Assembly: GCF_007860075.1 (NCBI RefSeq)
Contig: NZ_SJPP01000001.1
Span: forward strand, 2,887,490 to 2,951,489
Origin: Symmachiella macrocystis
GTDB lineage: Bacteria > Planctomycetota > Planctomycetia > Planctomycetales > Planctomycetaceae
Direction: 5' to 3'
DNA: 64,000 nucleotides
The notes under the pieces are model-generated. The model saw only the letters and a program-made list of their open reading frames with translations, made no database searches and had not been told where the DNA came from. The position numbers were made by a program, and so were the translations under genes. This document shows positions 17,895-33,943 of this stretch, piece after piece; within the stretch, counting starts at the first letter, position 1, and every line of letters starts with the position of its first letter.

Positions 17895-18818
17895 ATGCCG
17901 CCATCGGCCATCATTGTGCTCGGTTCGGTGAACACCGATTTAGTCATTCGTTCACCACGGATTCCTGCTCCTGGAGAAACGGTTCTGGGGGGCGAATACT
18001 TTCAAGCGCCGGGCGGCAAGGGGGCCAACCAAGCCGTCGCCGCTGCCCGCGCCGCGCGCGATCCGGTCACCTTTATCGCCGCTGTCGGGGATGACGAATT
18101 CGGACGCGGTGCGCTCGATAATTTCTCTCGCGAAAACCTCGTCAGTCAGTACATCACGACCGTGCCCAACCAACCTTCAGGCGTGGCGCTGATTTTCGTT
18201 GACGAGCAGGGCGAAAACGCGATCAGCGTTGCCTCCGGCGCTAACCTGCATCTCACTCCCCAGCACGTCGACGCCCTCCCCGAGAACCTGTTCGCCGCTG
18301 CAGGGGTGTTTCTGTGCTGTTTGGAATCCCCCGTAGAAACTGTCGTCCGGGGTCTACAGCGCGCGCGAGCCGCCGGGCTGATCACCATCCTCAACCCCGC
18401 ACCGGCGCTCTCTGAAATTGCGACTCCTGAGATCCTGAAGTTGGTCGACGTGCTGACCCCCAATGCCGGCGAGGCTGCGTTGCTGACCGGGATGCAGGGT
18501 GTCGAGGAGGCAGCGCAACAGTTGCGCAATCTCGGATGTGGCTGCGTCATCACCACCTTAGGTCCCGACGGCTGCCAGATCACTGGCGAAGCGAATGTGC
18601 GCATCCCCAGTCGGAAGGTCACAGCCGTCGACACCACCGCTGCGGGAGACGCTTTCAACGGCGCACTCGCCGTAGCAGTCTCCGAAGGCCTGGCGCTGGA
18701 ACAGGCCGCACACTGGGCAACCGTCGCCGCGGCCATGGCCGTCACCCGCTCTGGGGCGCAACCTTCGCTGGCAAGCCGCAAAGAAATTGAGGCAGCCTTC
18801 TCGGAAATGGGCGAATAA
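17895..18818 (+). CDS. rbsK: Ribokinase (PfkB family)
   Basis: This 307-residue sugar kinase phosphorylates ribose with ATP in the cytoplasm. PfkB signatures are present: the start IIVLGSVNTDLVIRSPRIP, the first signature GGKGANQAVAAARA, ASGANLHLTP, and the second signature DTTAAGDAFNGALAVA with the catalytic base Asp252. The usual GAGD is AAGD here, which is a minor change. The length matches ribokinases (about 300-310). There is no ribose transporter or RbsD next to it, so it may serve nucleoside salvage. A related sugar specificity cannot be excluded. Confidence 0.92.
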   Translation: MPPSAIIVLGSVNTDLVIRSPRIPAPGETVLGGEYFQAPGGKGANQAVAAARAARDPVTFIAAVGDDEFGRGALDNFSRENLVSQYITTVPNQPSGVALIFVDEQGENAISVASGANLHLTPQHVDALPENLFAAAGVFLCCLESPVETVVRGLQRARAAGLITILNPAPALSEIATPEILKLVDVLTPNAGEAALLTGMQGVEEAAQQLRNLGCGCVITTLGPDGCQITGEANVRIPSRKVTAVDTTAAGDAFNGALAVAVSEGLALEQAAHWATVAAAMAVTRSGAQPSLASRKEIEAAFSEMGE

Positions 18819-19002
18819 CACCGCATGGAAATCAGCAATGTGAAATCAACGATTGTGCTGCAGTTCACAGTCGCCACGCACCTTAAGTCTCATAATTCTG
18901 CCGTGAGCGTAGAGAAGGCCGTTTCCTATGCAGCGAACCGGCCGATGATCAAGACGCCTTTCCCCAACCCAGCGGCACGGCATTTTCCAGAAAGAAAATA
19001 CC

Positions 19003-19578
19003 ATGAATCGAATACACATTCCGTTGACACTGCTAGCCATCGCCTGTGGACTATTTTGGATAGACGGCGAACTTCGCAGCGCAGAAAAGGAAACCAAACC
19101 GCCAGCCGTTGGTAAAAAGGCACCCAATTTTGAACTCGCGACATTGGACGGGAAAAAACACAAACTGAGCAAGCTGGTCGAAGACGGACCGGTCGTGGTC
19201 GTCATGCTCCGCGGCTTTCCCACCTACCAATGCCCGCTCTGTTCCCGCCAAATGACCGAATTTCTCAACGCCTCCAAGGGGTTCAAAGAGCAGGAATCGA
19301 CGGTTGTGTTTGTGTATCCCGACAAAAAAGACGGGGTGGCCAAGCATGCCCAACAATTCATTAAGGGAAAGAAGTTCCCCCCGAATTTCCTGTTCCTGCT
19401 CGATCCTGACTTTGAGTTCACCAATGCCTACGGATTGCGCTGGGAAGGCGAGAAAGAAACCTCGTACCCCTCGACGTTCATCATCGATGGGGATCAGAAA
19501 GTCACGTTCGCCAAAATCAGCCGTACGCATGGCGGGCGGACAAAAGCCAAGGAAATTATCGCCGAACTCGACAAATGA
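19003..19578 (+). CDS. Exported peroxiredoxin/redoxin-family protein
   Basis: This 191-residue AhpC/TSA-type thioredoxin-fold protein has an N-terminal signal (MNRIHIPLTLLAIACGLFW). The redoxin domain begins VGKKAPNFELATLDGKKHKL. The active-site strand is VVVMLRGFPTYQCPLCSRQ with Cys77 and Cys80, and TSYPSTFIIDGDQKVTFAKI supplies the cis-Pro strand. It likely acts outside the cytoplasmic membrane as a peroxide reductase or thiol oxidoreductase. It converges on the DUF1573 gene, with a hairpin terminator between them. Confidence 0.88.
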   Translation: MNRIHIPLTLLAIACGLFWIDGELRSAEKETKPPAVGKKAPNFELATLDGKKHKLSKLVEDGPVVVVMLRGFPTYQCPLCSRQMTEFLNASKGFKEQESTVVFVYPDKKDGVAKHAQQFIKGKKFPPNFLFLLDPDFEFTNAYGLRWEGEKETSYPSTFIIDGDQKVTFAKISRTHGGRTKAKEIIAELDK

Positions 19579-19615
19579 GTGAGGCTGGGACGGCCCGTAA
19601 GTGCAGCCGCCAGAG

Positions 19616-19660
19616 AAAAAAACGCTCGGCCCCCCGGTATCGTTACCTGGAGGCCGAGCG
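19616..19660 (-). terminator. Rho-independent terminator of the DUF1573 gene
   Basis: CGCTCGGCC (19623-19631) pairs with GGCCGAGCG (19652-19660), with further partial pairing inside. On the minus strand it is followed by a run of seven T (A-run 19616-19622). It sits 32 bases past the DUF1573 stop. The stem could also slow the converging peroxiredoxin transcript. Confidence 0.8.
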
Positions 19661-19691
19661 CTATTCTCGTGTTCCCAAACTGCGGAGAATA

Positions 19692-20729
19692 TTATTCCGC
19701 CGTGGCAATCTCACCATACACCTTGAAACGTACCGGTTCGGAACGACCTGCGATGCGGACGTCGAATTCCTCCACGAACTTGCCCATGGGCGAGTCCCCT
19801 TTGAGGTGAATCGGAATCACGTGCACGCTCTTTTCATCCGTCGGCGATTGCCAAGCAAATGCTGATTCATCTGCGCCTGAGGTGATCTTCTCGATCATGA
19901 TCGCCTTTTTCCCGCGGACCACGAACTGCACTGTTTTTTTGTCGCCCGGGTGCAGCTTGCCCACCGAAGCGGTTTGAGGTGAGACGATCACGTCAGGGGC
20001 GATTTTTCCTTCAACCAAAACCGTCACTTGCGATGATTCTCCGCCCACGGTGTCTAGCACGACTTGATCACGAAAGTCTCCCACCGGTGCCGTCGGTTTC
20101 AACAGAACCGAAACTTCATAACCCGGTTTTCCGTTTGCGTTCGGCGTGACAGTCACGTCCAAGTGTTCGTTGTCCGTATGTGCGCTGCGGACTTTCCAAT
20201 TGGGCGAACGAGCGTGGGAAACCTGCACCTTTTGCCGCCATCCCGTTCCATAATCGACCGTCCCAAACTTCACACTCCCCGGCGCTAAAATGATGTCCGG
20301 TTGAATGAATGCCGTGATCGGAATCCGCACTTCAGCCCGCTGAGGTTTGTCGAAGGTCACGATCACATTCGAGTTCTTGCGGTGCGAAAACTTGTGCGTA
20401 TTCATCGTGATTTCGATGTACGTCGATTCATTGCTTTTGAGCGTCGTCTTCTCCGGCTCGGCAGCCGAGCAACCGCAGGTCGTGCGGACATCGGCAATGT
20501 GCGTGTCATCCCGCCAATGACTGGTGATCTTAATCCGAGCCTTGGCCACCGAACCTTTGGGAACCGTGCCGAAATCTTGATTCAGCCGGTCGAACATCTT
20601 TTCTGCCCACGTCAACTCTGCGGCCTGTGCCGAAACTGCCGAGCACAGCATCAAGCAACAGACCGCGACTGCCGCCGGTCTCCCTTTCTGCAAAAGTGTG
20701 GCAGGGGTAATCGTGCTTAATTTGAACAT
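19692..20729 (-). CDS. Exported DUF1573-domain protein
   Basis: The 345-residue product starts MFKLSTITPATLLQKG. The second of two adjacent ATGs is chosen, because a GAGGAGG site then lies about 6 bases away. A signal peptide spans about 1-36, ending near VSAQAAE. Three Ig-like (ASH/DUF1573) repeats follow: FDRLNQDFGTVPKGSVAKA with TTCGCSAAEPEKTTL, then ILAPGSVKFGTVDYGTG, then VIVSPQTASVGKLHPGDKK. DUF1573 proteins are periplasmic or surface beta-sandwich proteins of unsettled function. This one is monocistronic, with a strong terminator. Confidence 0.88.
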   Translation of the reverse strand: MFKLSTITPATLLQKGRPAAVAVCCLMLCSAVSAQAAELTWAEKMFDRLNQDFGTVPKGSVAKARIKITSHWRDDTHIADVRTTCGCSAAEPEKTTLKSNESTYIEITMNTHKFSHRKNSNVIVTFDKPQRAEVRIPITAFIQPDIILAPGSVKFGTVDYGTGWRQKVQVSHARSPNWKVRSAHTDNEHLDVTVTPNANGKPGYEVSVLLKPTAPVGDFRDQVVLDTVGGESSQVTVLVEGKIAPDVIVSPQTASVGKLHPGDKKTVQFVVRGKKAIMIEKITSGADESAFAWQSPTDEKSVHVIPIHLKGDSPMGKFVEEFDVRIAGRSEPVRFKVYGEIATAE

Positions 20730-21268
20730 CATGGTCCTCCTCGTCGGATGAATCGGCCATTCCGTTGTCAGTCTTCCTGCCCACCCTGGCACGTTAAGTC
20801 GTAACTATCTCGTCAGCCGGACCGACCGCGCAGCAGACACCGCGAAAGCAAGAAATATAGAAATCGCCCGCGATGAAAGAAGTCGCCGCCGGTCGTCACT
20901 GCCCAGTTATGATTCGTCGAACGGTTAGCGCGTCTGACCCAGAAACGCGAGACCCGTTCGTAAATGTTTTCGAATCTGCTAACTTCAACATACCCGACTC
21001 TTAGGGGCTGTGAAGATGAATTTCCGGGATTTCACGAAATCAAAGCGCCGTAAAAGCGAGTTTCGGCCGAATTGGTGGCCTGGGAAAACTTTGCCTCCCC
21101 ACACAGCAGCGGAACAAACCCAACGACGCGCCAGGTTTGTTCAAACGCCAGACCCACCGCCACGCCGGTAAACCTATCGACCTAGACAACCTGTCACCGA
21201 ATACCGCTCCTTTTTACGGTGCCACCGCTAGTGACTAATTACCAATAACAGCGAAGGCCGTATTCTGT
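20730..21268. other. Intergenic region, nothing recognised
   Basis: These are 539 bases between the starts of the DUF1573 gene and the 3' end of the DUF4349 gene. No coding frame, RNA gene or strong repeat was seen. The DUF1573 promoter should lie in its first part. Confidence 0.45.
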
Positions 21269-22105
21269 TTACATCGAAATCGGTTTACGTCGATTCCACT
21301 TTAGAAATACAACAATTGCCACCAACGGAATAACCATTACGCAAACCCAGGGAGCAACGAAGACGCCGGCCAGCACTATCGATTGCGCCAATTCACTAAA
21401 CGATTCTATCGACGATGACCATGTGCGTTCGATGCGTGTCGTAAACGATGCCGATTGCACAGGTGCGTAATTGCTGATCTCTTCGAATCGAAGTGTGACC
21501 GTCGAATAGGCTGTTAGATCCGATAGAACGCGGAGTTGACCTTGCAGTTGTTCCACTTCCCCTCGGACCCGCGAGATCTCGCGTTCCACGGCCAAGATTT
21601 CCTCCAATTTGCCGCTGTGCTGATCGAGCAATTCCTTGAGCCGCTGCTCTTCTTGTTGTTGATTAGCCAGCCGCGCCTGCAGGTCATAAAAATTATCGCT
21701 GACTTCCTGAGTGGTTTGGCTTTCGCTACGAACTTCTCCCAATAGTCGACTGGCAACGAGAAACTCCTCGAACTTCTCCGCCGGAATGCGGATTGTCCAA
21801 TACGCGTGCCGCGGCACGTTAGCGGTGCCGGATACTTGAGCATCTGCAACAAATGCATCAAAGCGGCTGATGATTGCCTGCACCTGGGCGGGTACACCGG
21901 AGAAATCTTCAACAACGATATCCATGTCAGCACGATAGATGATCTTGCGCCTCAGTTTCCCCGCCCGAGCCAAGTCCCCTTCGCCGGCCACCGCATTGTC
22001 GCCGCGCTCAGGGGCAGCGGCGACGACTGGTTTCTTATCGATTCCCTCTGCTGCACCACAACCGGTCAACAAAAGCAGACACCACATCGCACAAGGTCTT
22101 ACCAT
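21269..22105 (-). CDS. DUF4349 lipoprotein
   Basis: The 278-residue product starts MVRPCAMWCLLLLTGC at 22105, with AAAGGG 8 bases upstream. The lipobox LLTGC puts the lipidated Cys at 16. The DUF4349 body follows: RRKIIYRADMDIVVEDFSGV, VPRHAYWTIRIPAEKFEEFL, and a long coiled coil (LQARLANQQQEEQRLKELLD) with AVEREISRVRGEVEQLQGQL. A C-terminal membrane helix (about 245-268) ends in a basic tail. It is probably an envelope-anchored protein of unknown role. The GTG at 22153 is a less likely start. Confidence 0.88.
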   Translation of the reverse strand: MVRPCAMWCLLLLTGCGAAEGIDKKPVVAAAPERGDNAVAGEGDLARAGKLRRKIIYRADMDIVVEDFSGVPAQVQAIISRFDAFVADAQVSGTANVPRHAYWTIRIPAEKFEEFLVASRLLGEVRSESQTTQEVSDNFYDLQARLANQQQEEQRLKELLDQHSGKLEEILAVEREISRVRGEVEQLQGQLRVLSDLTAYSTVTLRFEEISNYAPVQSASFTTRIERTWSSSIESFSELAQSIVLAGVFVAPWVCVMVIPLVAIVVFLKWNRRKPISM

Positions 22106-22339
22106 GGAGAGCGCCCTTTCAAAACCTCGATGAAAGAATTCGTGAGATCGCACAAGGGTAAGATCCCCAATACATGTCGTTTATTCCCCACCGCCACGCT
22201 ATTGATCCAAGCAATCCAGGTTTATACTGTTAACCAATGACCAACCCCAAACCGCACCACCCGTCACCCTGCTAAACTCTCTCACACTGGGAGTGGGCCG
22301 GGGTGAAGGTTTTTACAGCAAAATCAGGCGCCCACCAGC

Positions 22340-23857
22340 ATGTACAACACAAACACAAAACGCTCGACACATTTTCTGCCCATACTCGTATTCCTCTGTG
22401 CGTTTTCGCCGACCCTGACCAAGGCCGCCGATTCTGCTCCCGCGCGGCCGAACATCCTTTGGATTGTTGTCGACGACATGTCGGCCAATTTTTCCTGTTA
22501 CGGTGAAACGCTGATCGAAACGCCACATGTCGATCAACTCGCCCGCGAGGGTGTGCAGTTCAATCAGGCGTTCGTGACCGCTCCGGTTTGTTCTACGTGT
22601 CGTTCGGCCTTCATCACCGGCATGTATCAAACTGCTATTGGAGCGCACCATCATCGCAGTGGACGCGGTGAAGAAAAAATTCACCTCCCGCCCGGCGTCG
22701 AACCGATTCCGCTGTTGTTCCAACGTGCCGGGTATTACACGTCCATCAGCGGTTGGCCGATTCACCCCAAACGACTCGGCAAAACCGACTACAATTTCGA
22801 GTGGGATCCAGCAATGTACGACGGGTCCAATTGGGCCAAGCGTAAACCGGGACAGCCCTTTTTTGCTCAAATCCAACTCCCCGGAGGAAAACTCCGCGGC
22901 GGCACACGGCAATCGGCGCAAAAATTTGCTCAAAAGGCAAAGCGAAAGTTTGGAAGCAAAACCGATTCCGCCGACGTAATGCTTCCTCCCTATTACCCCG
23001 ACACACCGGTGCAGCGCGAAGACTGGGCCGCCTATTTGGATTCCGTCCGTGAAACTGATCGCGTTGTCGGGGAGATCATCGCTCGGCTCAAGGACGAAGG
23101 CGTTCTTGACCAAACACTGGTGCTGTTAATAACCGACCACGGCATCAGCCACGCTCGCGGCAAACAGTTTTTGTACGAAGAGGGAATTCATGTCCCCTTC
23201 ATCCTCCGCGGCCCAGGCATTGCAGCGGGAACCATCCGGGAGGACTTGATCGAACATATCGACATGGCGGCCATTTCCCTCGCGGTCGCTGGAATTCCGC
23301 TCCCCGAAACCATGCAGGCGCAGGACGTACTCGCCGAGGACTATCAACCCCGTGAAGCCATCTTTGCCGCTCGTGACCGCTGCGACGAAACGGTCGAACA
23401 TCTGCGTTGCGTGCGGACGGATCGTTTCAAGTACATCCGCAATTATTTGCCACAACGACCGCACCTCCAGCCGTGCGCCTACAAAGATCACAAATCGATC
23501 CTCATCGATCTACGTCGCGCCTTTGCTGCTGGTGAGTTGAACGACATCCAGAAACAACTCTTCGCTCCCACCCGCCCACCGGAAGAATTGTACGACCTAG
23601 AAAATGACCCGCACGAAATCCACAATCTTGCCGGCGACGCCAAATTCGCCTCGCAATTGACCGACATGCGAAACCGCCTCGATGATTGGATCGTCCGCAC
23701 CAACGACCATGGCCGGAATCCCGAATCCGCAGCCATGTACGACAGCGATATGGCCCTGTACCTCAATTCCCGCCGCCGCCGCGGATCGGCTGAAGAGCTC
23801 CAAGAATTGCAGGAAAACATCAACCAAATGAAACGTTGGGCCGCCGAAGGCAAATAA
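22340..23857 (+). CDS. Exported sulfatase with CSTCR active-site motif
   Basis: This 505-residue type I sulfatase has a signal peptide (about 1-30) and starts its alkaline-phosphatase-like fold with RPNILWIVVDDMSANFSCYG (metal Asp pair). The formylglycine segment is VCSTCRSAFITGMYQ, with Cys84 and Arg88. The common CxPxR is CxTxR here. The other metal motif is LVLLITDHGISHARGKQFLY. Such enzymes hydrolyse sulfate esters, often on algal polysaccharides. A maturase (FGE or anSME) would be needed and is not in this window. The QueC-like gene follows after 63 bases on the same strand. Confidence 0.92.
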   Translation: MYNTNTKRSTHFLPILVFLCAFSPTLTKAADSAPARPNILWIVVDDMSANFSCYGETLIETPHVDQLAREGVQFNQAFVTAPVCSTCRSAFITGMYQTAIGAHHHRSGRGEEKIHLPPGVEPIPLLFQRAGYYTSISGWPIHPKRLGKTDYNFEWDPAMYDGSNWAKRKPGQPFFAQIQLPGGKLRGGTRQSAQKFAQKAKRKFGSKTDSADVMLPPYYPDTPVQREDWAAYLDSVRETDRVVGEIIARLKDEGVLDQTLVLLITDHGISHARGKQFLYEEGIHVPFILRGPGIAAGTIREDLIEHIDMAAISLAVAGIPLPETMQAQDVLAEDYQPREAIFAARDRCDETVEHLRCVRTDRFKYIRNYLPQRPHLQPCAYKDHKSILIDLRRAFAAGELNDIQKQLFAPTRPPEELYDLENDPHEIHNLAGDAKFASQLTDMRNRLDDWIVRTNDHGRNPESAAMYDSDMALYLNSRRRRGSAEELQELQENINQMKRWAAEGK

Positions 23858-23920
23858 CATCCTGCTGTGCCAACGCCGGTTTCGCCCTTTTCCCATTGTG
23901 CACACCACCACAAACCCGCG

Positions 23921-24589
23921 ATGACAAACACTCTGGAATGTCCGATCGTTGTACTGCTTGGCGGCGGTGTCGAAAGCACGTCGTTGGTCAGCCGGTTTCT
24001 CGACCAACAGCGACGCGTCGTCCCCGTGCACGTGCATTGCGGCTTGATTTGGGATGACGTCGAGACGCTCTTCGTTCAACAATTTTGCCAGGCGCGTGCT
24101 TCAGACAACTTGGATCCGCTCATTCAATTTCAGATTCCCCTTGCCGGTTGGCTCGACGATCACTGGGCCGTCACGGGCAACAACATCCCCCGTGCGGGAG
24201 CTAGTGGCCACGATTTGGAAATCCCCCTGCGCAATCTCACCCTGTTGAGTTTTGCGCTCCCCAAAGTCGCGCATCTGCCGGACTTTCAATGCGCCCTCGG
24301 CACCACTGCCGACAATTCCTTTCGCGATGGCAGCCGCGAATACTTTGATCGTTCGCAGGAACTACTCAGCCTCGAAGCAGGCCGACCGATTGAAATTCTC
24401 ACTCCCTATCTCCAAATGACCAAAACCGACGTCATTCGCGTGACCGATCACGACACCTTGGCGTACAGCTTCTCCTGTATCGATCCTCGCGACAACCAAC
24501 ATTGCGGGCAATGCCTCAAATGCGGCAGCCGCCAACAGGCGTTCATTGCGGCAGGTGTTGACGATCCAACGGTGTACGCCAATGCCTGA
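23921..24589 (+). CDS. QueC-like PP-loop enzyme (7-cyano-7-deazaguanine synthase family)
   Basis: The 222-residue product starts MTNTLECPIVVLLGGGVEST. The fold follows QueC. It has a PP-loop at 14-19, VPVHVHCGLIWDDVETLF, IPLRNLTLLSFAL (the place of PGRN in QueC), GTTADNSFRDGSREYFD and a zinc site of Cys186, Cys195, Cys198 and Cys201 in the CGQC-x2-C pattern. The PP-loop reads GGGVES rather than SGGxDS, so a conserved Asp is Glu. Canonical QueC converts 7-carboxy-7-deazaguanine to preQ0 with ATP and ammonia. No queD, queE or folE is nearby. It overlaps the next ATP-grasp gene by 8 bases, so the two are probably coupled. It may act outside queuosine synthesis. Confidence 0.85.
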   Translation: MTNTLECPIVVLLGGGVESTSLVSRFLDQQRRVVPVHVHCGLIWDDVETLFVQQFCQARASDNLDPLIQFQIPLAGWLDDHWAVTGNNIPRAGASGHDLEIPLRNLTLLSFALPKVAHLPDFQCALGTTADNSFRDGSREYFDRSQELLSLEAGRPIEILTPYLQMTKTDVIRVTDHDTLAYSFSCIDPRDNQHCGQCLKCGSRQQAFIAAGVDDPTVYANA

Positions 24590-25547
24590 ATTTGCTTCTG
24601 TCGCCGTGCAGCATTACCAGTGGGCCGGGTTGGACTTCATGTTCGATGCCGACGGGACGCCGGTCTTGTTGGAGGCCAATCGTTGTTCGCACATGCTGTG
24701 GGAATACCTGTTGCTCTACAACGACGATACTCCGTTTCGACTCATCGCTGAGGTCTTAAGCGCAGCCGACGGTCCCACCTGTCTGATGTGGCGCCAAGAT
24801 GATCCTTTGCCCGACGCCGATGAAGACGCCTGTTGGATTGCCGGGCACCTGCGTTTGCACCTCGACCGAGAGGTATTCATCTGCCACGTGGAGGACAACC
24901 AGCAAGACTCTGATCAGTTGTTGACCCGCGATGGGAATCGCATTCGCCCCGGGAGTATTTTTCGTTGGTGGTATGATCTGCCTTGGTCGTATGAGCGTAG
25001 CGGCGTCTGCGTGATCAATCCCAATGCCGCCTGGGTCGCAGTCCGCGACAAGCTTGCCTGTTATTCCTCGCTGGCAGCGGCAAAAAGCTTCCGTGTCCCT
25101 CGCAGTTTTGCAGTTGAAACTCCCGATGAGGCATCCGCAATCCTCAGTGCACATCCCGATCTGTTTGAACGCGGGTATGTGATCAAACCCCGCGTCGGTT
25201 TTGGCGGGCATGGCGTGCAAATTGCCGATCCGCACGATTCGCCCCAGCTGTTTTCGGGGAATCATCTGCTGTCCGAGCGGATCATCCCGCAACTTCGCGA
25301 CGGCAACTTTTGGGATGTGCGGCTGTTCGTGATGGCCGGCCGGTATCTGGGCGGTGTGCTGCGCAGCAGTCCCGGTGCTGTGACCAACGTCTTCCAAGGC
25401 GGCACGCCGCTAAGACTCGACGACGATACCGCCGCCGCTCTTCAAGCCCCCGCCCTCGAAGCTGTCCAGTTGCTCGATGCGGCCGCTGAAGCAGTGCACG
25501 GCTTACCCCATCCCCCCGACACAGATCTCACCAACGTCGAGTATTGA
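24582..25547 (+). CDS. ATP-grasp ligase-like protein with permuted terminal motif
   Basis: The 321-residue product starts MPEFASVAVQHYQWAGLDFM. ATG 24582 overlaps the QueC-like stop (shared ATGCCTGA). Residues about 65-300 look RimK/glutathione-synthetase-like: a pre-ATP-grasp domain, VRDKLACYSSLAAAKSFRVP, the ATP-binding YVIKPRVGFGGHGVQI with Lys202, then FWDVRLFVMAGRYLGGVLR with Arg247. The end of the family, a D-x-DG-x-P-LLE-x-N strand carrying the metal-binding Glu and Asn, is absent at the C-terminus (…PDTDLTNVEY stop). A near-perfect version, DFMFDADGTPVLLEANR with Glu31 and Asn33, is at the N-terminus. This suggests a circular permutation or a remnant of a tandem ATP-grasp. It probably forms a carboxylate-amine bond using ATP. 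Confidence 0.8.
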   Translation: MPEFASVAVQHYQWAGLDFMFDADGTPVLLEANRCSHMLWEYLLLYNDDTPFRLIAEVLSAADGPTCLMWRQDDPLPDADEDACWIAGHLRLHLDREVFICHVEDNQQDSDQLLTRDGNRIRPGSIFRWWYDLPWSYERSGVCVINPNAAWVAVRDKLACYSSLAAAKSFRVPRSFAVETPDEASAILSAHPDLFERGYVIKPRVGFGGHGVQIADPHDSPQLFSGNHLLSERIIPQLRDGNFWDVRLFVMAGRYLGGVLRSSPGAVTNVFQGGTPLRLDDDTAAALQAPALEAVQLLDAAAEAVHGLPHPPDTDLTNVEY

Positions 25548-25630
25548 TTTCCGCCGCCGTCCCGTCTAACGTTTGGAAAATACCCCCAAGAATTGACATT
25601 GGCAGTCGTGCTTTCGTGGAGAATTCCCTC

Positions 25631-26059
25631 ATGGTCGAGACCTATCAGTCACACGGTGTTAGTTTTGAATATCCCGACGATTGGGAAATCATTGAACAAC
25701 AAGACGCCCAGGAAGTCGCCATCACGGTGCAAAGCCCGGAAACTTCATTTTGGTTGTTGACCGTATTTTTCGACCGGCCCGATCCTGAAAAAATCGCCGA
25801 AGCCGCCCTGGATGCCTTCCGGCAGGAATACGACGACCTCGACATCTATGAAGGTGACGACAACATCTGCGACGAGAATGCAGTCGCCTGGGACCTCGAA
25901 TTCCGCGCGATGGAGGTCTACAACAGCGCTTGGGTCCGCACCTTCCAAACCGACCTATTCTCCGCCCTGGTGCTCTACCAAGCCAACGACTTAGAATTCG
26001 AAGAGACCGCCGACACAATGCGCGGAATGACCCGCAGCCTGGGTTACTATTACGAGTAA
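25631..26059 (+). CDS. Small PsbP-like/unknown protein
   Basis: The 142-residue product starts MVETYQSHGVSFEYPDDWEI, with GTGGAG upstream of the ATG at 25631. The opening YPDDWEI followed by alternating strands (VAITVQSPETSFWLLTVFFD) and a helix (PEKIAEAALDAFRQEY) resembles the PsbP-like or DUF1795 type of small alpha-beta protein. No signal peptide is seen. It lies 83 bases after the ATP-grasp gene on the same strand and could be the last gene of that unit. Function unknown. Confidence 0.75.
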   Translation: MVETYQSHGVSFEYPDDWEIIEQQDAQEVAITVQSPETSFWLLTVFFDRPDPEKIAEAALDAFRQEYDDLDIYEGDDNICDENAVAWDLEFRAMEVYNSAWVRTFQTDLFSALVLYQANDLEFEETADTMRGMTRSLGYYYE

Positions 26060-26509
26060 CCGGCGAGAACCATCCAGAGGGTGGCCGCGATTGCTTCGCA
26101 ATCGGGTCGGGCAAAGCCCGCAAGAAGCCGCAATTTCCACGCTACATATTAGAGAAGCGTGCAAGTCGACCAAAGCATTCCGCAGCGCCTCCCAGCATCG
26201 ACGCGATCAACCAGCACCACCCCAACCGCACACCACGAGCACAATACGAGCACACCACGAGCGCCCCACACAAGATTGGCCAACGGCCAATCCCCACCCT
26301 AGCCAGGGGCAACGCCCCTGGAATTATTATGGCAACGAAGATTTGTTGGCCGAAGGCCAAATTCACATGCTTTGCGCACGCGACGAAAACGTGAAATTGG
26401 CCGTTGGCCAATGATAAAATTGTTGCCAACGCAAATACCTAGGGCGAATGCCCTAGGCTAAGATGTCATTTGGCCGTTGGCCAAACATCTCCCGATCACT
26501 GCTAACCGG
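26060..26509. other. Intergenic region packed with short palindromes
   Basis: This is a 450-base gap between convergent genes. No gene was recognised. The second half carries six hairpin-forming palindromes in about 212 bases (listed as one repeat feature). Confidence 0.6.
26274..26485. repeat. Cluster of six REP-like palindromes
   Basis: Visible copies are GATTGGCC AAC GGCCAATC (26274-26292), CCAGGGGC AAC GCCCCTGG (26303-26321), TTGGCC GAA GGCCAA (26346-26360), ATTGGCC GTT GGCCAAT (26396-26412), CCTAGGGC GAAT GCCCTAGG (26438-26457) and TTTGGCC GTT GGCCAAA (26469-26485). They share 3- or 4-base loops (AAC, GAA, GTT, GAAT) and GC-rich stems. Four of the six use the TTGGCC/GGCCAA stem. They lie between convergent genes, where they may act as transcript ends. 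Confidence 0.75.
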
Positions 26510-27280
26510 CTATGACGACGAATCTCGCGTCGGTTCAGGCGCCGGTTGTTGTGCCGTATTGTCGGATTCGGTGCCATCGGGGGGCGGGGCGTCTTCCGCG
26601 GTCGTTTGTTCTTCGGGCGGTGCAACCTGCGTGTCTGACTCGCCTAGGTCAAACTCTTCAATCAACTCCCGCCGCCGGTTCGTAACCTGTTTATCAAACT
26701 CACTGAGCACGCTCATTGCGTGATCGCGGGATGTGACCAAGCCCATAATTAGGTATTGTATGATCGCGATCACGTAAAACACCCAACCCGCCGGACCGTG
26801 GAAAATGGTCGAGAGGATTGCGAATACGGGCGATGAGCGGTTGACGTGCTGGCAGAGCAGGCCCTTCACGTAGGGCCGCCAATTCTCCTTGAGGGTACTG
26901 AGAACTTCCCCGCGACGAAATTTCAATTTCGGCGGTCCGGGGTAGATGATGGAAAACAGCTCTTGGTCCGGCATCGTCTCGATCACACCGACAGCCAAGA
27001 GGATGCGTCCACCTAGCACCAGCCAGTCCAGATTGAAACTTAAGTGGTCGCCGGTCGCCCAGAAAAACAGTAGGTCTTCCATATTGGCGGTGGCCGCCAT
27101 CAACACCAGCGATGCCCGAAACCACTGCTCCAGGTCTTTCTCAAGTTCCTCGTCCATTTCCTGCAGACGCACAACTTTGCGCAGAAAGACGCGGAATGTT
27201 GGGATCGCGACCATTCCCAGCAGCAGCCGGATGAACGACCGCATCACCGGCAGTTTCATGATTATAGTAAACCAATTCAC
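26510..27280 (-). CDS. Membrane protein of unknown function
   Basis: This 256-residue protein starts from a GTG at 27280 with AAGGA 9 bases upstream. An ATG at 27259 is the alternative. Hydrophobic segments are near 12-30 ([19 protein letters not shown]), about 55-110 ([19 protein letters not shown]) and about 160-185 ([18 protein letters not shown]). The N-terminal part has an amphipathic acidic stretch ([15 protein letters not shown]). The C-terminal 50 residues are Pro/Glu/Thr-rich and disordered-looking. I do not recognise a family. Confidence 0.75.
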
Positions 27281-27610
27281 AACAAACGTCCTTGCGAGGC
27301 GATTGCTTCAACTCAAAAATAGCTCGAAAACAGCCCATTCGGGCCGCTATTACGGTAACGCATCCGACGGCCCACCGGTTCACGCCCCCGCAGTGTACCA
27401 ACTTCAGCCAAGACTGCGGAGACAACCGCCCCAACCCCACAAAATTCCCCCGCCACCATTCGCAGTCGCCGCCGTTTTACGCTATCCTGGCAACTTTTCG
27501 GAACCCCGTTTTTCCACCAACTTTTTTCTCTGCGCCTCAGCGTCTCTGCGCGAGACTTTATTTTATAACACCTCTCATCAACGATCGACAAATCTCAGCG
27601 GAGCCACCTC
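27281..27610. other. Intergenic region with one repeat arm
   Basis: This is 330 bases between divergent genes, expected to hold the promoters of the membrane protein gene and araB. At about 27522-27560 is CTGCGCCTCAGCGTCTCTGC followed by GCGAGAC, the reverse-complement match of one arm of the 318-487 element. No gene was seen. Confidence 0.5.
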
Positions 27611-29239
27611 ATGAATCAACCGGCACATGTTGCACTCGGACTCGACTTTGGCACCGAATCGGTCCGGGCCTTGTTGGCCGATCTGAACGGCAACGAACTC
27701 GCCTCTGCTGTCGGGCCCTATGAGCACGGTCAAATTACCGAGACCTTGCCCGGCACGGGTGAAAAACTCCCCGCCGATTTTGCCTTTCAGCATCCCAGCG
27801 ACTGGATCGAAGCCTCCGCTCAGGCGGTCCGCGACGCAGTGGCCGCTGCTGGATTGACCGGCGACGAGATCATCGGCATCGGTGTCGATTTCACGAGTTG
27901 CACCATGCTCCCCGCGCTGAGCGATGGCACGCCGCTGTGCCTGGTGCCGCAGTGGGCTACTGAAAAATTTGCTTGGCCCAAACTGTGGAAACATCACGGC
28001 GCGAAAACACAAACCGAGAAAATCAACGAACTGGCCCGCGCGCGCAACGAACCTTGGCTGGCCCGCTACGGCGGCATCATCGGTCTGGAATGGTTCTTTC
28101 CCAAAATGCTGGAAACCCTCGAAGAGGCACCCGCCGTTTACGATGCGACGGAAGTCTGGCTCGAAGCAGGGGACTGGTACGTCTGGCAACTGGTTGATAG
28201 CCCCGCCGACAAACTGCCCCGTTCCACCTGTCAAGCGGGTTATAAAGGCATGTGGCACAGCCACGATGGTTTCCCCTCCCACGAATTCTTAGCCGCTCTG
28301 CATCCCAAACTAGAAAACGTTGTCGCCGAGAAAATGCCGGGAAAATTCCTCGCGCCGGGCGAAGCGGCCGGCACCCTCTGTGCCTCTATCGCAGAGAAAT
28401 TCGGACTTCCCGCCGGAATCCCCGTCAGTGCAGCCACGATCGACGCGCACGCTGGTGTCCCCGGAGCCGGTGCCGCTGGAGCAGGCACGTTGGTGATGGT
28501 CATGGGAACCAGTAGTTGCCACATGCTCAATGCCGACGCCGAACAAAACGTCCCCGGTGTCGCCGGAATCGTCGAAGGGGGGATCCTCCCCGGATTCTAT
28601 GGTTACGAAACCGGCCAAGCCGCTGTGGGAGACGCCTTTGATTGGTTGCGGCGTACGACTGGCCACGACAACTTCGATCAACTCACCGCACAAGCCGCAC
28701 AATTGTCCCCGGGGGCTGACGGCGTGCTCTGCATGGATTGGTTCAACGGTTGTCGCACGCCGCTGATGGATGGTGGGCTGCGCGGCGCGTTTGTTGGGCT
28801 CACCATGAACCACGGGGCAGGGCACATGTACCGCGCTTTGATGGAAGGCTCCGCCTTTGGAGTGCGTTGGATCGTTGACCTGCTGCGAGAAAACGGCGTG
28901 CCGGTCACCGGCATCGTTGCCACAGGCGGACTCCCGCACCACAATCCGCTGTTGGTACAAATCTACGCCGACGTCCTGGGGTTGCCGATCACCGTGCATC
29001 CCTCAAAACAAGGCCCCGCACTCGGGGCGGCGATACTCGGCGTTCTGGCCGCCGACACCGATCGAAAACACTTTGCCACCACCGCCGACGCTATCGCCGC
29101 CATGGCCGGCCCGCGTGCGGATGATCCCAGTCGTGCGGCGAAAATCGTCGAGCCAGAAGCAGATGCACAAGCGGCCTATGAAAACATCTATCAACGTTAC
29201 CGCAAACTGGCCGATGTGCTCGTCGCTGAAGAATTCTAG
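27611..29239 (+). CDS. araB: Ribulokinase (FGGY family)
   Basis: This 542-residue kinase phosphorylates L-ribulose to L-ribulose-5-phosphate. FGGY features seen: the N-terminal phosphate loop ALGLDFGTESVRALLADL, GIGVDFTSCTMLPAL, WFFPKMLETLEEAP, CQAGYKGMWH, the adenosine-loop region GTLVMVMGTSSCHML, and VTGIVATGGLPHHNPLLVQI near the end. The ribulokinase-type GVDFTSCT and the length support AraB over xylulokinase or glycerol kinase. GGAG precedes the ATG by 7 bases. An isomerase gene follows after 84 bases, consistent with an L-arabinose or related pentose operon. No epimerase (AraD) is in the window. Confidence 0.93.
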   Translation: MNQPAHVALGLDFGTESVRALLADLNGNELASAVGPYEHGQITETLPGTGEKLPADFAFQHPSDWIEASAQAVRDAVAAAGLTGDEIIGIGVDFTSCTMLPALSDGTPLCLVPQWATEKFAWPKLWKHHGAKTQTEKINELARARNEPWLARYGGIIGLEWFFPKMLETLEEAPAVYDATEVWLEAGDWYVWQLVDSPADKLPRSTCQAGYKGMWHSHDGFPSHEFLAALHPKLENVVAEKMPGKFLAPGEAAGTLCASIAEKFGLPAGIPVSAATIDAHAGVPGAGAAGAGTLVMVMGTSSCHMLNADAEQNVPGVAGIVEGGILPGFYGYETGQAAVGDAFDWLRRTTGHDNFDQLTAQAAQLSPGADGVLCMDWFNGCRTPLMDGGLRGAFVGLTMNHGAGHMYRALMEGSAFGVRWIVDLLRENGVPVTGIVATGGLPHHNPLLVQIYADVLGLPITVHPSKQGPALGAAILGVLAADTDRKHFATTADAIAAMAGPRADDPSRAAKIVEPEADAQAAYENIYQRYRKLADVLVAEEF

Positions 29240-29323
29240 AATGCAATGACCATTGACGGTCTCTATCAAATTTCACTACTTAATCGAAAACACCCGTAAA
29301 CTACCAATTAGGACACACGCACG

Positions 29324-30988
29324 ATGTCTGCCTATTCAATTTCTAAACCGACCAAAAAACCAAAACTCAAAAAGAACCAAGTTCAATTGATCGCCAGTGG
29401 CGACTTGCGGCTTTCCGCGAACCAAAACTGCTGGGAAGCGCAAGAGCAAATGGAAGCTGCGCTGACCCAAGCGGTCGAAGCGGCCGGTTATGAAATCGTT
29501 CGCGCGCATCCTTATGACGAAACCGAAAAGCACGGCTTCATCGGCTCGCAAAAACAGGGCATGCAGGTTTTTGAAAACATCGATCCGCACGCGCCGTTGA
29601 TCGTGGCCGAAGCGGTTTGGCAGTACTCGCATCATGTTCTCTCGGGATTGGCTACGCATCAAGGCCCGATTCTGACCGTCGCCAACTGGTCGGGGACTTG
29701 GCCCGGTTTGGTCGGCATGCTGAATCTCAACGGTTCGCTCACCAAGGCGGGTGTTGAGTATTCCACGCTCTGGAGCGAGGACTTCACCGACAAGTATTTC
29801 ACGACTCGGCTCAAGAAATGGCTGACGACCGGCACGTGCAAGCACGCGACCAAACATGTCAAACCGCTCAAGAAGGTCAAGGTCTCAGCCAAGGAACGCA
29901 AACTCGGCGAGTCGTTGGCCGCCCAAATGCAATCCGAAAAAGCCATCATGGGTGTCTTCGACGAAGGCTGCATGGGCATGTTCAACGCCATCATTCCCGA
30001 CCATCTCCTCAACCCGACCGGCCTCTACAAAGAACGTCTCAGTCAGTCGGCGCTGTACCATGAGTCGACACAAGTCAAAAATGCTGAAGCCAAAGCGGTC
30101 CGCAAGTGGATGGAAGACAAAGGCATGACCTTCCACACCGGACGCACCCACGAAACCGATCTCACCGACGATCAAATCCACAAGCAATGCCAAATGTACA
30201 TCGCTGCGGTGCGGATTGCCGATGATTTCGGCTGCGACTGCATCGGGATTCAATACCAACAAGGACTCAAAGACCTGCTTCCCGCTAGTGATTTGGTCGA
30301 AGGCACCCTCAACAACCAGGCCCGCCCGCCCGTGACCAGTCGCGATGGACAACGCGAATTGTACGCCGGCGAAGCGATCCCGCACTTCAACGAAGTCGAC
30401 GAGTGCGCCGGTCTCGACAGCTTGATTACCTATCGCGTCCACAAAGCAATGGGACAGCCGGTCGAAAACACGTTGCACGATATTCGTTGGGGCGATCACG
30501 ATGCCACGGGTAAGGTCGATGACTACATCTGGGTGCTGCTCATCAGCGGCGCCGCCCCGCCGGCGCATTTCATCGGTGGATGGAAAGGGGCCGACGGCCT
30601 ACGGCAAGTCCCCATGTATTTCCCCGCCGGCGGCAGCACGCTGCGGGGAATTTCCAAACCGGGTGAAATCGTCTGGTCGCGGATTTATGTCGAAGACGAT
30701 CGCCTGAAAATGGACCTCGGCCGCGGCGGCGTGGTGAAGCTCTCCAAAAAAGAAACCGAGCGACGCTGGAACGAAACCACCCCGCAATGGCCGATCATGC
30801 ACGCCGTTACCTACGGTACGTCGCGCGACCAAATGATGGCCCGTCACAAATCGAATCACATCCAAGTCGCCTACGCCAAGTCAGCCGCCGATGCCGACAA
30901 AGCGTTACTCGCCAAAGCCTCAATGGCCGCCGAACTGGGAATCGAAGTCGCCCTCTGCGGCACCCGCGCCGATGGTAAGGCGTGGTAA
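29324..30988 (+). CDS. L-arabinose/L-fucose isomerase-family protein
   Basis: This 554-residue protein is related to the FucI/AraA sugar isomerases, which convert aldoses to ketoses with Mn2+. Segments [77 protein letters not shown] and [19 protein letters not shown] are typical of the fucose-isomerase fold, with candidate metal ligands Glu and Asp in these stretches. The poly-Lys N-terminus ([10 protein letters not shown]) is an addition. Pairing with ribulokinase suggests it makes L-ribulose, or another ketose used by that kinase. This is inferred from position. Confidence 0.88.
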
Positions 30989-31042
30989 TTCACCGACATT
31001 TGTCCCAGTTTCCGTCAGCCCCCGGCTATGCCTTGGGGCGGA

Positions 31043-31192
31043 CTATTGATGCCGTTCGTCATCCCGCGGTGTCCTCATGCTTTCCACGAGATAATCCACA
31101 AGCATGAAAATGATTACGCAGGCACCCACGTTACACCCAAATTTCACAACGAGCAGAATTATTTCAGTCGGACTAGGAATTGGGGAAAACAT
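31043..31192 (-). CDS. 49-residue single-helix membrane protein (copy A)
   Basis: The minus strand from ATG 31192 gives MFSPIPSPTEIILLVVKFGC, then a hydrophobic helix (NVGACVIIFMLVDYLV) and a charged tail ending PRDDERHQ. It aligns end to end with the 47-residue protein at 31507-31650: the MF-x-P start, the pre-helix Glu, one membrane helix, the Ser/Thr-x-x-x-Pro tail and a DD/DDRH ending. Two related small frames on one strand argue that both are real. A weak TGGA site precedes the start. Function unknown. Confidence 0.6.
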   Translation of the reverse strand: MFSPIPSPTEIILLVVKFGCNVGACVIIFMLVDYLVESMRTPRDDERHQ

Positions 31193-31506
31193 TGGCAAGT
31201 CCACTGGATGGGGTGAAAGTCGAGGCAGCAAGACCGAGAGGCGGAAGTATTTTCCGCTGCAATCGATCAATGCAGTAGCAAATCTAAACCGTCAATAGAC
31301 TGGAGCTGATAGAACGTGTGCCGGTACGACCGGATGACTGTGGCCAAATTGAGATAAACCCGCGGATCTTCTCGCTAAACAGGCCATTCAATAACCGTAA
31401 AGAATCCCTTTAGATAACCACTGATTTTGGACCCGTTCCATCGGCAGTTACCAATTGGATATCAAAACACCGCGGTTCCGTCCGGCACAGCCGGGCCAAT
31501 ACGTTA
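31193..31506. other. Intergenic region, nothing recognised
   Basis: This is a 314-base gap between the two small membrane-protein genes. No repeat or RNA was seen. A promoter for copy A is expected here. Confidence 0.4.
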
Positions 31507-31650
31507 CTAATCGTGCCGATCGTCGCCTTCCGGCGACTTCGTGCTTTTGACCAGATAAATCACCAGCACAGCGATGAGCAACGGCACGCCGATGAGCATC
31601 AAAAAAATCGCGGCGATGATCAGCAGTTCCATCGGACCAGGTAGAAACAT
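31507..31650 (-). CDS. 47-residue single-helix membrane protein (copy B)
   Basis: From ATG 31650 the product reads MFLPGPMELLIIAAIFLMLI, continues through a hydrophobic stretch (GVPLLIAVLVIYLV) and ends KSTKSPEGDDRHD. A GGAG site lies about 8 bases upstream, which supports this start over the longer frame. The layout (short outer N-terminus with Pro and Glu, one helix, charged tail) superficially recalls the start of TatA-like proteins, but it lacks the amphipathic helix. It is a paralogue of 31043-31192. Confidence 0.65.
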   Translation of the reverse strand: MFLPGPMELLIIAAIFLMLIGVPLLIAVLVIYLVKSTKSPEGDDRHD

Positions 31651-31960
31651 CGGAAACTCCAGATAGCTGAGCGTGTTCTGATAAATATCGCTGGAATAGC
31701 AGGCTGCATCGTCTGGTGGCATCAATCACTGTACCGACGGCCATGTAGATTCGACAGTCCGAATCGAATCCGACCCTCACCGTATTGAGATAAATCGCAG
31801 CGGAATTCTTCTCGGTTTTCAACCAGCAATTTCGGCTAGCCAACCTGTCTCATATCCGCTAAAAGACTCGCTCCATTGTGGATCGGGCCCGCGGCAGTTG
31901 CGCCGTAGATGCCGCCGCACCTCAAAAAAATGCTTGCAACTTCTCATGGAGGAGAACTCA
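31651..31960. other. Divergent intergenic region
   Basis: This is 310 bases between the small membrane-protein gene B and the thioredoxin-fold gene. Nothing was recognised apart from the two ribosome-binding sites at its ends. Promoters for both directions are expected. Confidence 0.4.
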
Positions 31961-33943
31961 ATGCCCGTCGGGAAATTGCGCCCTTACGGCCGTTCGCTCA
32001 GCGCCCTGTTCGCCGTTCTTTGCGGTTTCACCGTTGTGGTTGGGGGATTCAACGCCCACGCCGCTGACCCGCCCGCTGCTAAAAAACAAACCGCTCCTCA
32101 GCGCAAGCCGGCAACAGCCTCTCAAGGCAAACCGACATCCGCTACGCGCAAACGGACTGCCTCAACCGGCAAACGCCCGGCTGCGCCTCGCAAACGGGCG
32201 ACTGCATCGCGCAAGACCGCAAAATTACCTTCCGTCAAAGCCATCCAAGCGGCCTATCACAAGAACTTCACCAAGTTCATGCCGCTGGGTGTTGAATACC
32301 GCATGACGATCACCGATACGGAAGCCGCGATTGAAACCGAACGGCAGCGTCTCAAGGAAAAACAAGACTTCACCAAGGCAAATCCGGGATCTATTGTAGT
32401 CAACGGGAAAGCGTTGGATGAGGCGCAATTCAAAGAGACCATGCGACATGTCGGCGAGGAAATTCAATACCTGACGCAGACCCTTTCCGACGAATCGGTC
32501 AAAAATCGCCTCAAGGGGTGGGTGATTCAGCGGCCGTATGTCTGGACCGATGGCCAATCACTTCATCTTCGCCGGTCAAACAATCCCTCCGCATCCGATG
32601 ACACGTTGTTTCCCGGCGCACTGACTCCTCCGGAGAAATTATCGGAGCTGTATAACTCGATCGTGTTGGCATCGTGGTCGAAAGACAACGACCCGCCGCT
32701 GCGGTGTTGGTTCGGCGGAAATGCCCCCGGCCAGGGCCGTGTGGCAAATGTCCTCAACGACTGCATCGCCATTTCGCTCCCGCCGATGGGTTTTGTCAAA
32801 GAGGACTGGACCCACAAAAGGGATTGGCATGAATGGGATCTGTTTATGACCGCCGATCCGAGTCGTTTTAAAGTCGTCAAGCGGACTGAGGTCAAAGGCC
32901 GCGTTATGTATGTCATGGATGAAGTTGTTGAAAAAGGGGAGCGGGCGCGTGTCTGGATCGATCCCCGGCAAGGCGCTCTGCCGCTACGCATGGAATGGAG
33001 TTACGTCAGCACGGCCGATAAAGTCGTCACCCCGTTTCATCGCGACTTGCAGATCCTGGCGGTCAAAAAAGTCGCCAATGGCTTCTATCCGGCGAAAATA
33101 AGACGCCGCGATCTCATTCCCGACGCAAAAATTGCTCAAAAACAACGCGAGGAATTCGCTGCCGGCACCTTGGCCAAAGACGCGCCCCGCCCACCGTTGG
33201 TCACGGGACGTATCACTGCCTGGGAAGCCACAAAATTTGAACCGAAAAAAGCGATCGAACCGGCTGCTTTGGCACTCGCGTTCCCCAAGGGAGCTCTCTA
33301 TATCAACGCGGTCGACGAACGGACCTACCGCACCGGCGATTCTCAGCCATTGCCCCCGGCACCTCAGCCTATTCAGCCCTCTCAAGTCGCGCCGCCGCTG
33401 AAAATTGCTGAATGGATCGACGGCAAATCACGAAATCTCGACAGCTTCAAGGGTAAGGTCGTGGTGCTCGTTTTCTCACAAAAAATGGGTGACACTCAAG
33501 ACGATCAAAGCAACGACGACGCTGTCGCCTTCATGAAGACTCTCCAAGGAAAATTCGGCTCCAAGGGAGTCATCTTCTTAGAGGTTTTTGGTGCCAAGTC
33601 GAACATGCAGCGTGTCCGTGATTTCCAAAAAGCTCGCGGCTGGAAATCTTTGGTTGGCATTGATGCAACCACGAGATCTAACGTAGGGGCTTCGGCTGAG
33701 AAGTATCTCGCAGGCAACGATTCGGGGTTCGTCGTCATCGGTCGCAACGGCCGCGTTGCTTTCAACGCCGATGCACTCGAAGAAGAAACGGCCATGCAAA
33801 TGTTCTACCAGGCAGCCCAGACGCTATCGATCCCCTGGCCGCTCGACAAAAATGGCCCAGAAGATCAAATCGATCAACAGCAGGTGCAAATCTTCGAACA
33901 CATCGTCAGCAAACAAATCGAACAGGCGCTGGCACAGCCCTAG
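31961..33943 (+). CDS. Exported protein with C-terminal redoxin-like domain without cysteines
   Basis: This 660-residue protein starts MPVGKLRPYGRSLSALFA, preceded by GGAGGAG about 6 bases upstream. A signal peptide ends near AHAAD (about 34). Residues 35-90 are a Lys/Arg/Pro/Ala/Thr-rich linker (KRTASTGKRPAAPRKRATAS). A large middle region (about 90-470) has no recognised family. The C-terminal 170 residues look like a TlpA/redoxin domain: KSRNLDSFKGKVVVLVFSQK, GVIFLEVFGAKSNMQRVRDF and SGFVVIGRNGRVAFNADALE. The CxxC position reads SQKMGDTQ, so the thioredoxin centre is missing. It is probably a periplasmic or surface protein with a binding rather than redox role. Confidence 0.8.
   Translation: MPVGKLRPYGRSLSALFAVLCGFTVVVGGFNAHAADPPAAKKQTAPQRKPATASQGKPTSATRKRTASTGKRPAAPRKRATASRKTAKLPSVKAIQAAYHKNFTKFMPLGVEYRMTITDTEAAIETERQRLKEKQDFTKANPGSIVVNGKALDEAQFKETMRHVGEEIQYLTQTLSDESVKNRLKGWVIQRPYVWTDGQSLHLRRSNNPSASDDTLFPGALTPPEKLSELYNSIVLASWSKDNDPPLRCWFGGNAPGQGRVANVLNDCIAISLPPMGFVKEDWTHKRDWHEWDLFMTADPSRFKVVKRTEVKGRVMYVMDEVVEKGERARVWIDPRQGALPLRMEWSYVSTADKVVTPFHRDLQILAVKKVANGFYPAKIRRRDLIPDAKIAQKQREEFAAGTLAKDAPRPPLVTGRITAWEATKFEPKKAIEPAALALAFPKGALYINAVDERTYRTGDSQPLPPAPQPIQPSQVAPPLKIAEWIDGKSRNLDSFKGKVVVLVFSQKMGDTQDDQSNDDAVAFMKTLQGKFGSKGVIFLEVFGAKSNMQRVRDFQKARGWKSLVGIDATTRSNVGASAEKYLAGNDSGFVVIGRNGRVAFNADALEEETAMQMFYQAAQTLSIPWPLDKNGPEDQIDQQQVQIFEHIVSKQIEQALAQP

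Follow-up and report, generated by a model that had tools for sequence, protein, structure and literature searches.

A conserved pair of a divergent QueC-family gene and a gene for an ATP-grasp ligase of permuted sequence order in a planctomycete, with a possible link to pterin carboxylates

The gene pair and its neighbours

The stretch of DNA analysed here, referred to as the window, is 64,000 nucleotides long and comes from the 7,574,949 base genome of Symmachiella macrocystis (genome G000). It contains two overlapping genes on the same strand, the first encoding a divergent QueC-family protein that we call QueC' and the second an ATP-grasp ligase (Table 1). Both ORFs begin with ATG and end with TGA. 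QueC' matches the Pfam QueC model (PF06508) with 66.9 bits against a cut-off of 22, and the ligase matches ATPgrasp_ST with 38.4 bits against a cut-off of 31.4. A previous reading of this DNA, made from the sequence only, had reported an overlap of eight bases between the genes, and the letters read the same here (ATGCCTGA). The two proteins are 89–91 % identical to those of the nearest relative, G431, and dN/dS values of 0.12 (QueC') and 0.13 (ligase) in that comparison correspond to purifying selection on both genes.

Table 1. Features of the gene pair, numbered from the first base of the window
Feature	Position	Strand	Basis
QueC', divergent QueC-family PP-loop protein, 222 aa, clade 1	23921..24589	+	Pfam match, tree, residue counts
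Changed P-loop of QueC', GGGVEST replacing canonical SGGxDS	23960..23980	+	G[GA]G[VI]EST in 10/10 clade-1 proteins
Stretch with zinc-site cysteines C186, C195, C198, C201 of QueC'	24476..24523	+	All four in 47/47 rows compared
8-base overlap of the QueC' and ligase genes	24582..24589	+	Sequence
RimK-type ATP-grasp ligase, 321 aa, circularly permuted in sequence	24582..25547	+	Profile comparison
Relocated C-terminal segment at ligase N-terminus, H11–Y42, with metal-ligand pattern D18, E31, N33	24612..24707	+	Profile comparison
Pre-ATP-grasp and ATP-binding part of ligase, G64–Y321, with R122, D156–K157, K202, R247, N269	24771..25544	+	Profile comparison

The pair is followed by a gene for a small protein (25631–26059) that matches PsbP_2 with 17.9 bits, below the cut-off of 27. 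This PsbP-like protein had been put forward as a third member of the group, a suggestion we abandon since, among the other pair loci, G431 alone has it next to the two genes, and it evolves at another rate: it is 98.6 % identical to its G431 copy (dN/dS 0.025), against 89–91 % for the pair. Farther behind the pair, at 26276–26484, four copies of a palindrome-like unit, TTGGCCNNNGGCCAA, lie within 210 bases and look like a repeat element; by shuffling, 0.27 copies would be expected in the whole window with one mismatch allowed. A 554 residue ORF (29324–30988) next to the ribulokinase gene (27611–29239) looks isomerase-like by eye and has no NCBIfam match at 1e-5.

Nor do we retain the defence setting considered in the sequence-only reading, as nine neighbouring window proteins (17895–33943) were compared with the PADLOC models and none gave a match at 1e-5. 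Within the pair, PADLOC recognizes the general QueC model (1.8e-15) and, weakly, QatC, and on the QatC equivalog model QueC' reaches 23.7 of 280 bits, below the cut-off. QueC' resembles Cap9 of type IV CBASS and QatC of the qatABCD system as a QueC-family protein apparently recruited to a new reaction, and the QueC' family profile has Cap9 as its best match in the PDB, but it differs from them in the respects just given.

Occurrence of the pair

Proteins of the clade to which the window QueC' belongs (clade 1, defined below; 57–91 % identity) occur in 10 of 170 genomes of the family, and the ligase likewise in 10 of 170. Nine genomes have both genes, one has QueC' with no ligase detected (G343), one has the ligase and no QueC' (G359, where the ligase is split across two contigs) and 159 have neither, a co-occurrence with a Fisher p of 4e-13 when kinship among the 170 genomes is ignored. 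With nine genomes holding both genes against one and one holding a single gene, the coupled pair that had been proposed is a conserved unit. The genes are adjacent in seven of the nine genomes that have both (G000, G431, G432, G383, G341, G382 and G342); in G358 each is on a contig of its own, and the 1.1 kb that follow QueC' are other sequence, and in G356 the contig with QueC' stops 0.26 kb past the gene. The overlap of eight bases is found in G000 and G431 and a probable one of 14 bases in G432, and in the other four adjacent pairs the genes stand 12, 251, 490 and 621 bases apart (start codons were assigned by eye throughout). Because these lengths vary, it is the adjacency that is conserved and not the overlap.

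The surroundings of the pair change from genome to genome. A sulfatase gene precedes it and a ribulokinase gene follows it in G000 and G431, and the setting in G432 is a different one. In G383, G382 and G342 (loci L060, L063 and L065) the gene order is mdh, QueC', ligase, bioA, the bioA assignment being above its cut-off in all three and that of mdh coming from a scan in G383 and by eye elsewhere. This order might be taken to place the pair beside biotin synthesis; with other neighbours in the window genus, and with mdh next to QueC' lacking an adjoining ligase in G343 and G358, we regard that role as improbable. We note that in G382 the stop codon of the ligase gene and the likely start codon of bioA overlap by four bases.

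The profile searches covered genomes of Planctomycetota. Among 392 genomes of the phylum, with about five candidates scored in each, the ligase was found at E 1e-12 in the window genome only, and a peptide-pattern scan of genome contigs for the ligase returned a single locus. Pattern-based scans of viral contigs found no relatives, and the corresponding scan of plasmids gave one partial ligase match (Azospirillum) and nothing else.

Relationship of QueC' to canonical QueC

A second QueC is encoded at C1:3079745 of the same genome; it matches the Pfam model with 239.7 bits and TIGR00364 with 198.3 bits (cut-off 150.3), and the product of the gene directly after it has four NCBIfam matches, all to QueE models and all below the cut-offs. 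The window QueC' scores 39.6 bits on TIGR00364, under that same cut-off. When 48 proteins were placed in a tree, the 24 that we took as canonical (23 planctomycete and one from Escherichia coli) separated from 24 QueC' sequences at 100/100. Ten QueC' proteins, including that of the window, form clade 1 (100/100) and the other 14 form one group at 93/88; the tree program warned of long branches, including those of E. coli, L138, L139 and L135 and those that connect the three groups. The sequence-only reading had raised the question of a separate canonical queC and had suggested a role other than in tRNA, a suggestion that a lone QueC grouping with the queuosine enzymes would contradict. Since a canonical queC lies beside queE elsewhere in this genome and QueC' groups apart from canonical QueC, the non-tRNA role is the better reading.

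Residue counts were made on 24 canonical and 23 QueC' rows, L138 being omitted for its low coverage of the tree columns (31 %). Y35, Q37, C134 and Y189 are present in 24/24 canonical rows and in 0/23 QueC' rows, and these losses are distributed over otherwise recognizable motifs. The motif YxQxHxxE has lost Y35 and Q37 and kept its glutamate; VPxRN reads IPLRN in the window protein, with R99 present in all 23 QueC' rows, the asparagine in 22 and the valine replaced by I, L or M; and YPDC reads FRDG, with C134 lost, an aromatic residue at 131 in 22/23 and D133 in 22/23. The counterparts of E. coli positions 131 and 133 in the window protein are F134 (F or Y in 22/23) and D136 (22/23). All four zinc cysteines are kept in each of the 23 QueC' rows. 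The Y35A, R99A, Y131A and Y189A substitutions each inactivate E. coli QueC, and Y131F leaves it partly active (PMC13329287).

These observations bear directly on whether QueC' might serve queuosine synthesis like any other QueC and have the ligase gene next to it by chance, as its Pfam match could suggest. We reject this reading as very improbable, given a separate canonical queC beside queE (198.3 against 39.6 bits on TIGR00364), the 100/100 split, the conservation of the pair and the absence from QueC' of Y35 and Y189, both essential in E. coli (PMC13329287). QueC' remains like canonical QueC in its fold family, as judged by sequence, and in its zinc cysteines, PxRN motif, aromatic-x-Asp motif and conserved lysine; it differs in its GGGxES loop, in lacking the four residues named above, in forming a separate clade, and in having a ligase partner and no adjoining queE.

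Clade 1 has an additional change in that the phosphate-loop motif SGGxDS has become GxGxES in 10/10 proteins (GGGVES in the window), so that the first serine and the aspartate are replaced and the second serine is kept. Such a change could mean that the clade 1 proteins are not enzymes, but a scaffold or regulator of a ligase acting on an unrelated carboxylate. RimK, MptN and MyfB act on carboxylates of this kind, for instance on side chains of peptides or coenzymes, and the best NCBIfam models of the window ligase are MptN, RimK and LysX. The function of QatC, moreover, is abolished when both loop serines are changed (PMC13279940), of which clade 1 retains the second. Against this stand the strong purifying selection on QueC' and the invariance within clade 1 of the zinc cysteines, R104, N105, D136, K168 and E48, and we consider a purely non-enzymic QueC' unlikely. 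An AlphaFold model of QueC' built from a two-sequence input has a mean pLDDT of 33.5. The most divergent QueC' of the set (L139, 8114–8779; 131 bits) has its SGGxDS motif altered in a different way and still lies beside SDR and QueD-like genes.

The ligase and its circular permutation

The ATP-grasp ligase family to which the second gene had been assigned is correct; an addition, unseen in the earlier reading, is that the ligase is of the RimK type with its segments in circularly permuted order along the sequence, the metal-binding D/ExN hairpin having moved to the N-terminus. Its scores on the MptN, RimK and LysX models are all far below the cut-offs (rimK_fam, 35.4 of 143.4 bits). We compared a profile of nine ligases, from which the second ligase fragment of G356 and the split ligase of G359 were left out, with one of 36 planctomycete RimK-like proteins of canonical order; adding 5 to the profile columns gives window residues. 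In native order two out-of-order alignments were obtained, of columns 115–305 with reference columns 97–285 and of columns 6–30 with 274–298, the latter with an E-value of 3.9e-5 for that single comparison. When the ligase sequence was rotated at cuts from 40 to 130, the two alignments fused and the score rose from 122 to 145–147; they stayed unfused with cuts at 20, 160, 200, 240, 280 and 300.

The residues expected of an ATP-grasp active site (two lysines, an arginine, an asparagine and D/E/N metal ligands) are present in 9/9 ligases, in which R122, N146, D156, K157, K202, R247, N269, D18, E31 and N33 are invariant. We take D156–K157, K202, R247, N269, D18, E31 and N33 to have the active-site roles of their counterparts in ATP-grasp enzymes. 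The D, E and N are also found in 36/36 of the reference set, a figure that is partly by construction because the set was picked by its C-terminal motif.

Further matches give weaker hints of the permutation. The ligase N-terminus matches the C-terminal part of D-Ala-D-Ala ligase weakly (E 1) and that of YheCD with E-values of 0.21 (window) and 0.0036 (L060). The Pfam YheCD match of the L060 ligase covers 11–31 in native order and 200–288 after rotation, and rotation brought no gain in the YheCD match of the window ligase. In a PDB profile search the rotated and native alignments scored 23.7 and 23.6 bits, and the alignments shown there miss the relocated segment; this search is neutral with regard to the permutation. 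The mean pLDDT of an AlphaFold model of the ligase, again from a two-sequence input, is 44.1.

The window ligase is thus like RimK, LysX and MptN in that its residues 102–309 align to their main part and the catalytic residues are kept, and it differs from them in the permuted order of its segments and in model scores far below the cut-offs. The CP_ATPgrasp families of Pfam likewise have a permuted ATP-grasp fold; the window ligase, a permuted RimK-type sequence, has none of the CP_ATPgrasp models among its matches at E-values up to 1.

Pterin genes around the sister loci

The 14 QueC' proteins outside clade 1 come from five loci in the family (170 genomes) and nine in a sample of the phylum, recovered at 128 bits or more. 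Pterin genes are present in 13 of these 14 sister stretches, namely genes for QueD-like proteins in 10, for SDRs in eight, for pterin-4a-carbinolamine dehydratase (PCD) in three and for FolE in two. The stretch of L135 has no pterin gene, and in L138 a QueD-like gene lies 2.2 kb away. By comparison, 12 canonical queC loci of the same phylum, taken with flanks of 4 to 19 kb, have QueD, FolE or PCD in 0/12 and QueE in 4/12, and a weak SDR match lies 7.6 kb from one of them. No queE was found with phmmer (E 1e-6) beside any of the 24 QueC' loci (10 of clade 1 and 14 sister loci).

Five of the sister-locus SDRs were scanned; the pteridine reductase model of NCBIfam ranks first for four of them and second for the other, with scores below its cut-off. 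In 8/8 of the sister-locus SDRs (L070 and L139 by eye) the glycine motif, which usually ends in GxG, has an arginine in place of the first of these two glycines, and such an arginine is a mark of pteridine reductases (PMC13259868). The strict TGxxxRxG occurs in the SDRs of L136, L137 and L139, and in the remaining ones the motif has another length or no threonine. The QueD-like proteins of the sister loci carry CxxxHGH in 10/10 cases.

No pterin gene was found near the 10 clade 1 loci, including that of the window, several of which are on short contigs, and the pterin link for clade 1 is for this reason borrowed from the sister loci. Furthermore, across bacteria queD neighbours canonical QueC in 32.6 % of neighbourhoods (PMC13329287). 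Since queD adjoins canonical queC too and QueD also feeds deazaguanine synthesis, the weight of the argument falls on the SDR, the PCD and the missing queE. The pathway imagined in the sequence-only reading, for a modified deazaguanine or another carboxylate-derived group, is accordingly shifted by the sister loci towards pterin metabolism.

Genes for a QueD-like protein, a pteridine reductase-like SDR and a PCD are present in the window genome itself, each at a distance from the pair. A QueD-like protein is found at E 1e-10 in 118/170 genomes of the family and in 14 of the 15 genomes with QueC' (G382 being the exception), and we rejected the presence of this gene as specific evidence because it is so common. 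An SDR gene is followed after 25 bases by a PCD gene in one place (L151, 7534–8797; C1:2086533–2087796); we rejected this SDR, at C1:2086695, as the pteridine reductase since it has GIG instead of RxG and its likeness to the linked SDRs is 31 %. A better candidate is encoded at C1:4656587, with GGRRVG and 37–38 % likeness to them. None of 31 SDR matches in the genome reaches the pteridine reductase cut-off, and the same is true in control genomes.

Proposed function

QueC enzymes activate the carboxylate of a guanine-like base, and the Watson–Crick edge of such a base is common to pterins. In Cap9, the aromatic residue and the aspartate stack on the substrate base and read that edge (PMC13279940). 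As QueC' keeps this means of guanine-edge reading and its relatives travel with a QueD-like gene in the absence of queE, a pterin carboxylate may be its substrate. We therefore propose, with a probability of about 0.35, that the pair is a two-part ATP-dependent carboxylate–amine ligase whose substrate class is most likely 6-carboxy-(tetrahydro)pterin. QueC' would supply a pocket for a carboxylate on a 2-amino-4-oxo-pyrimidine ring, and the QueD product 6-carboxy-(tetrahydro)pterin would be favoured over 7-carboxy-7-deazaguanine (CDG). With part of the phosphate loop lost in the GGGxES of clade 1, activation may have been taken over from QueC' by the ATP-grasp enzyme, which would both activate and join. 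In most ATP-grasp enzymes an acyl phosphate is the intermediate by which a carboxylate is coupled with an amine or thiol (PMC8141765); the permuted ligase would likewise form the acyl phosphate and might then couple the carboxylate with an amine or an amino acid to give an amide. We infer that QueC' and the ligase are physical partners.

CDG is made by QueD and QueE. The reading closest to ours keeps it as the ligand of QueC', the pair then attaching CDG to a protein or an amino acid, much as Cap9 does in deazaguanylation. The retained aromatic-x-Asp, PxRN, zinc site and lysine would all suit this, as would the rank of Cap9 as best PDB match of the QueC' family profile (1.6e-15, with canonical QueC at 1.4e-13), the QueE-like protein beside canonical queC in the same genome and the frequency of queD as a neighbour of canonical QueC at large (PMC13329287). 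It is at odds, however, with the lack of queE beside the 24 QueC' loci and of PADLOC matches among the nine window neighbours, and it leaves the pteridine reductase-like SDR and PCD of the sister loci unexplained; moreover, Y35, Q37, C134 and Y189 are missing from 23/23 QueC' rows, whereas Cap9 is reported to keep variants of the first three motifs (PMC13329287). We judge conjugation of CDG to be rather unlikely, and prefer a pterin carboxylate.

More broadly, we tentatively suggest that a planctomycete branch of QueC has left deazaguanine chemistry for pterin carboxylates, and that one clade of it joined with a newly permuted RimK-type ligase to make an undescribed pterin conjugate, perhaps a cofactor or a signal. 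The earlier interpretation is partly carried over into this proposal, through its conserved pair, separate queC and non-tRNA role and without its PsbP-like third member and defence setting. A survey of the QueC family from 2026 describes queuosine, defence, LarE, purine-salvage, sugar-amidotransferase and GMP-synthase branches (PMC13329287). Its main text mentions neither planctomycetes nor ATP-grasp, and pterins appear there only as intermediates of the route to deazaguanine, in one abbreviation and in one reference (PMC13329287); because the 10 largest clusters were analysed there, a small branch could have been missed (PMC13329287). Among the matches listed in searches of the open-access literature we found no QueC-like/ATP-grasp pairing, permuted RimK-type ligase or pterin-linked QueC branch. 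A QueC branch tied to pterins would, if true, give the family a further class of substrates and raise the question of which pterin these bacteria make, and the permuted ligase would be a natural case of the ATP-grasp fold tolerating rearrangement.

We note finally that the window genome has a gene that looks CitG-like by eye (L096, 6344–7755; C1:3055343–3056754), with no NCBIfam match at 1e-20. It overlaps a second gene of the QueD/PTPS family by four bases and is perhaps part of a methanopterin-type cluster.
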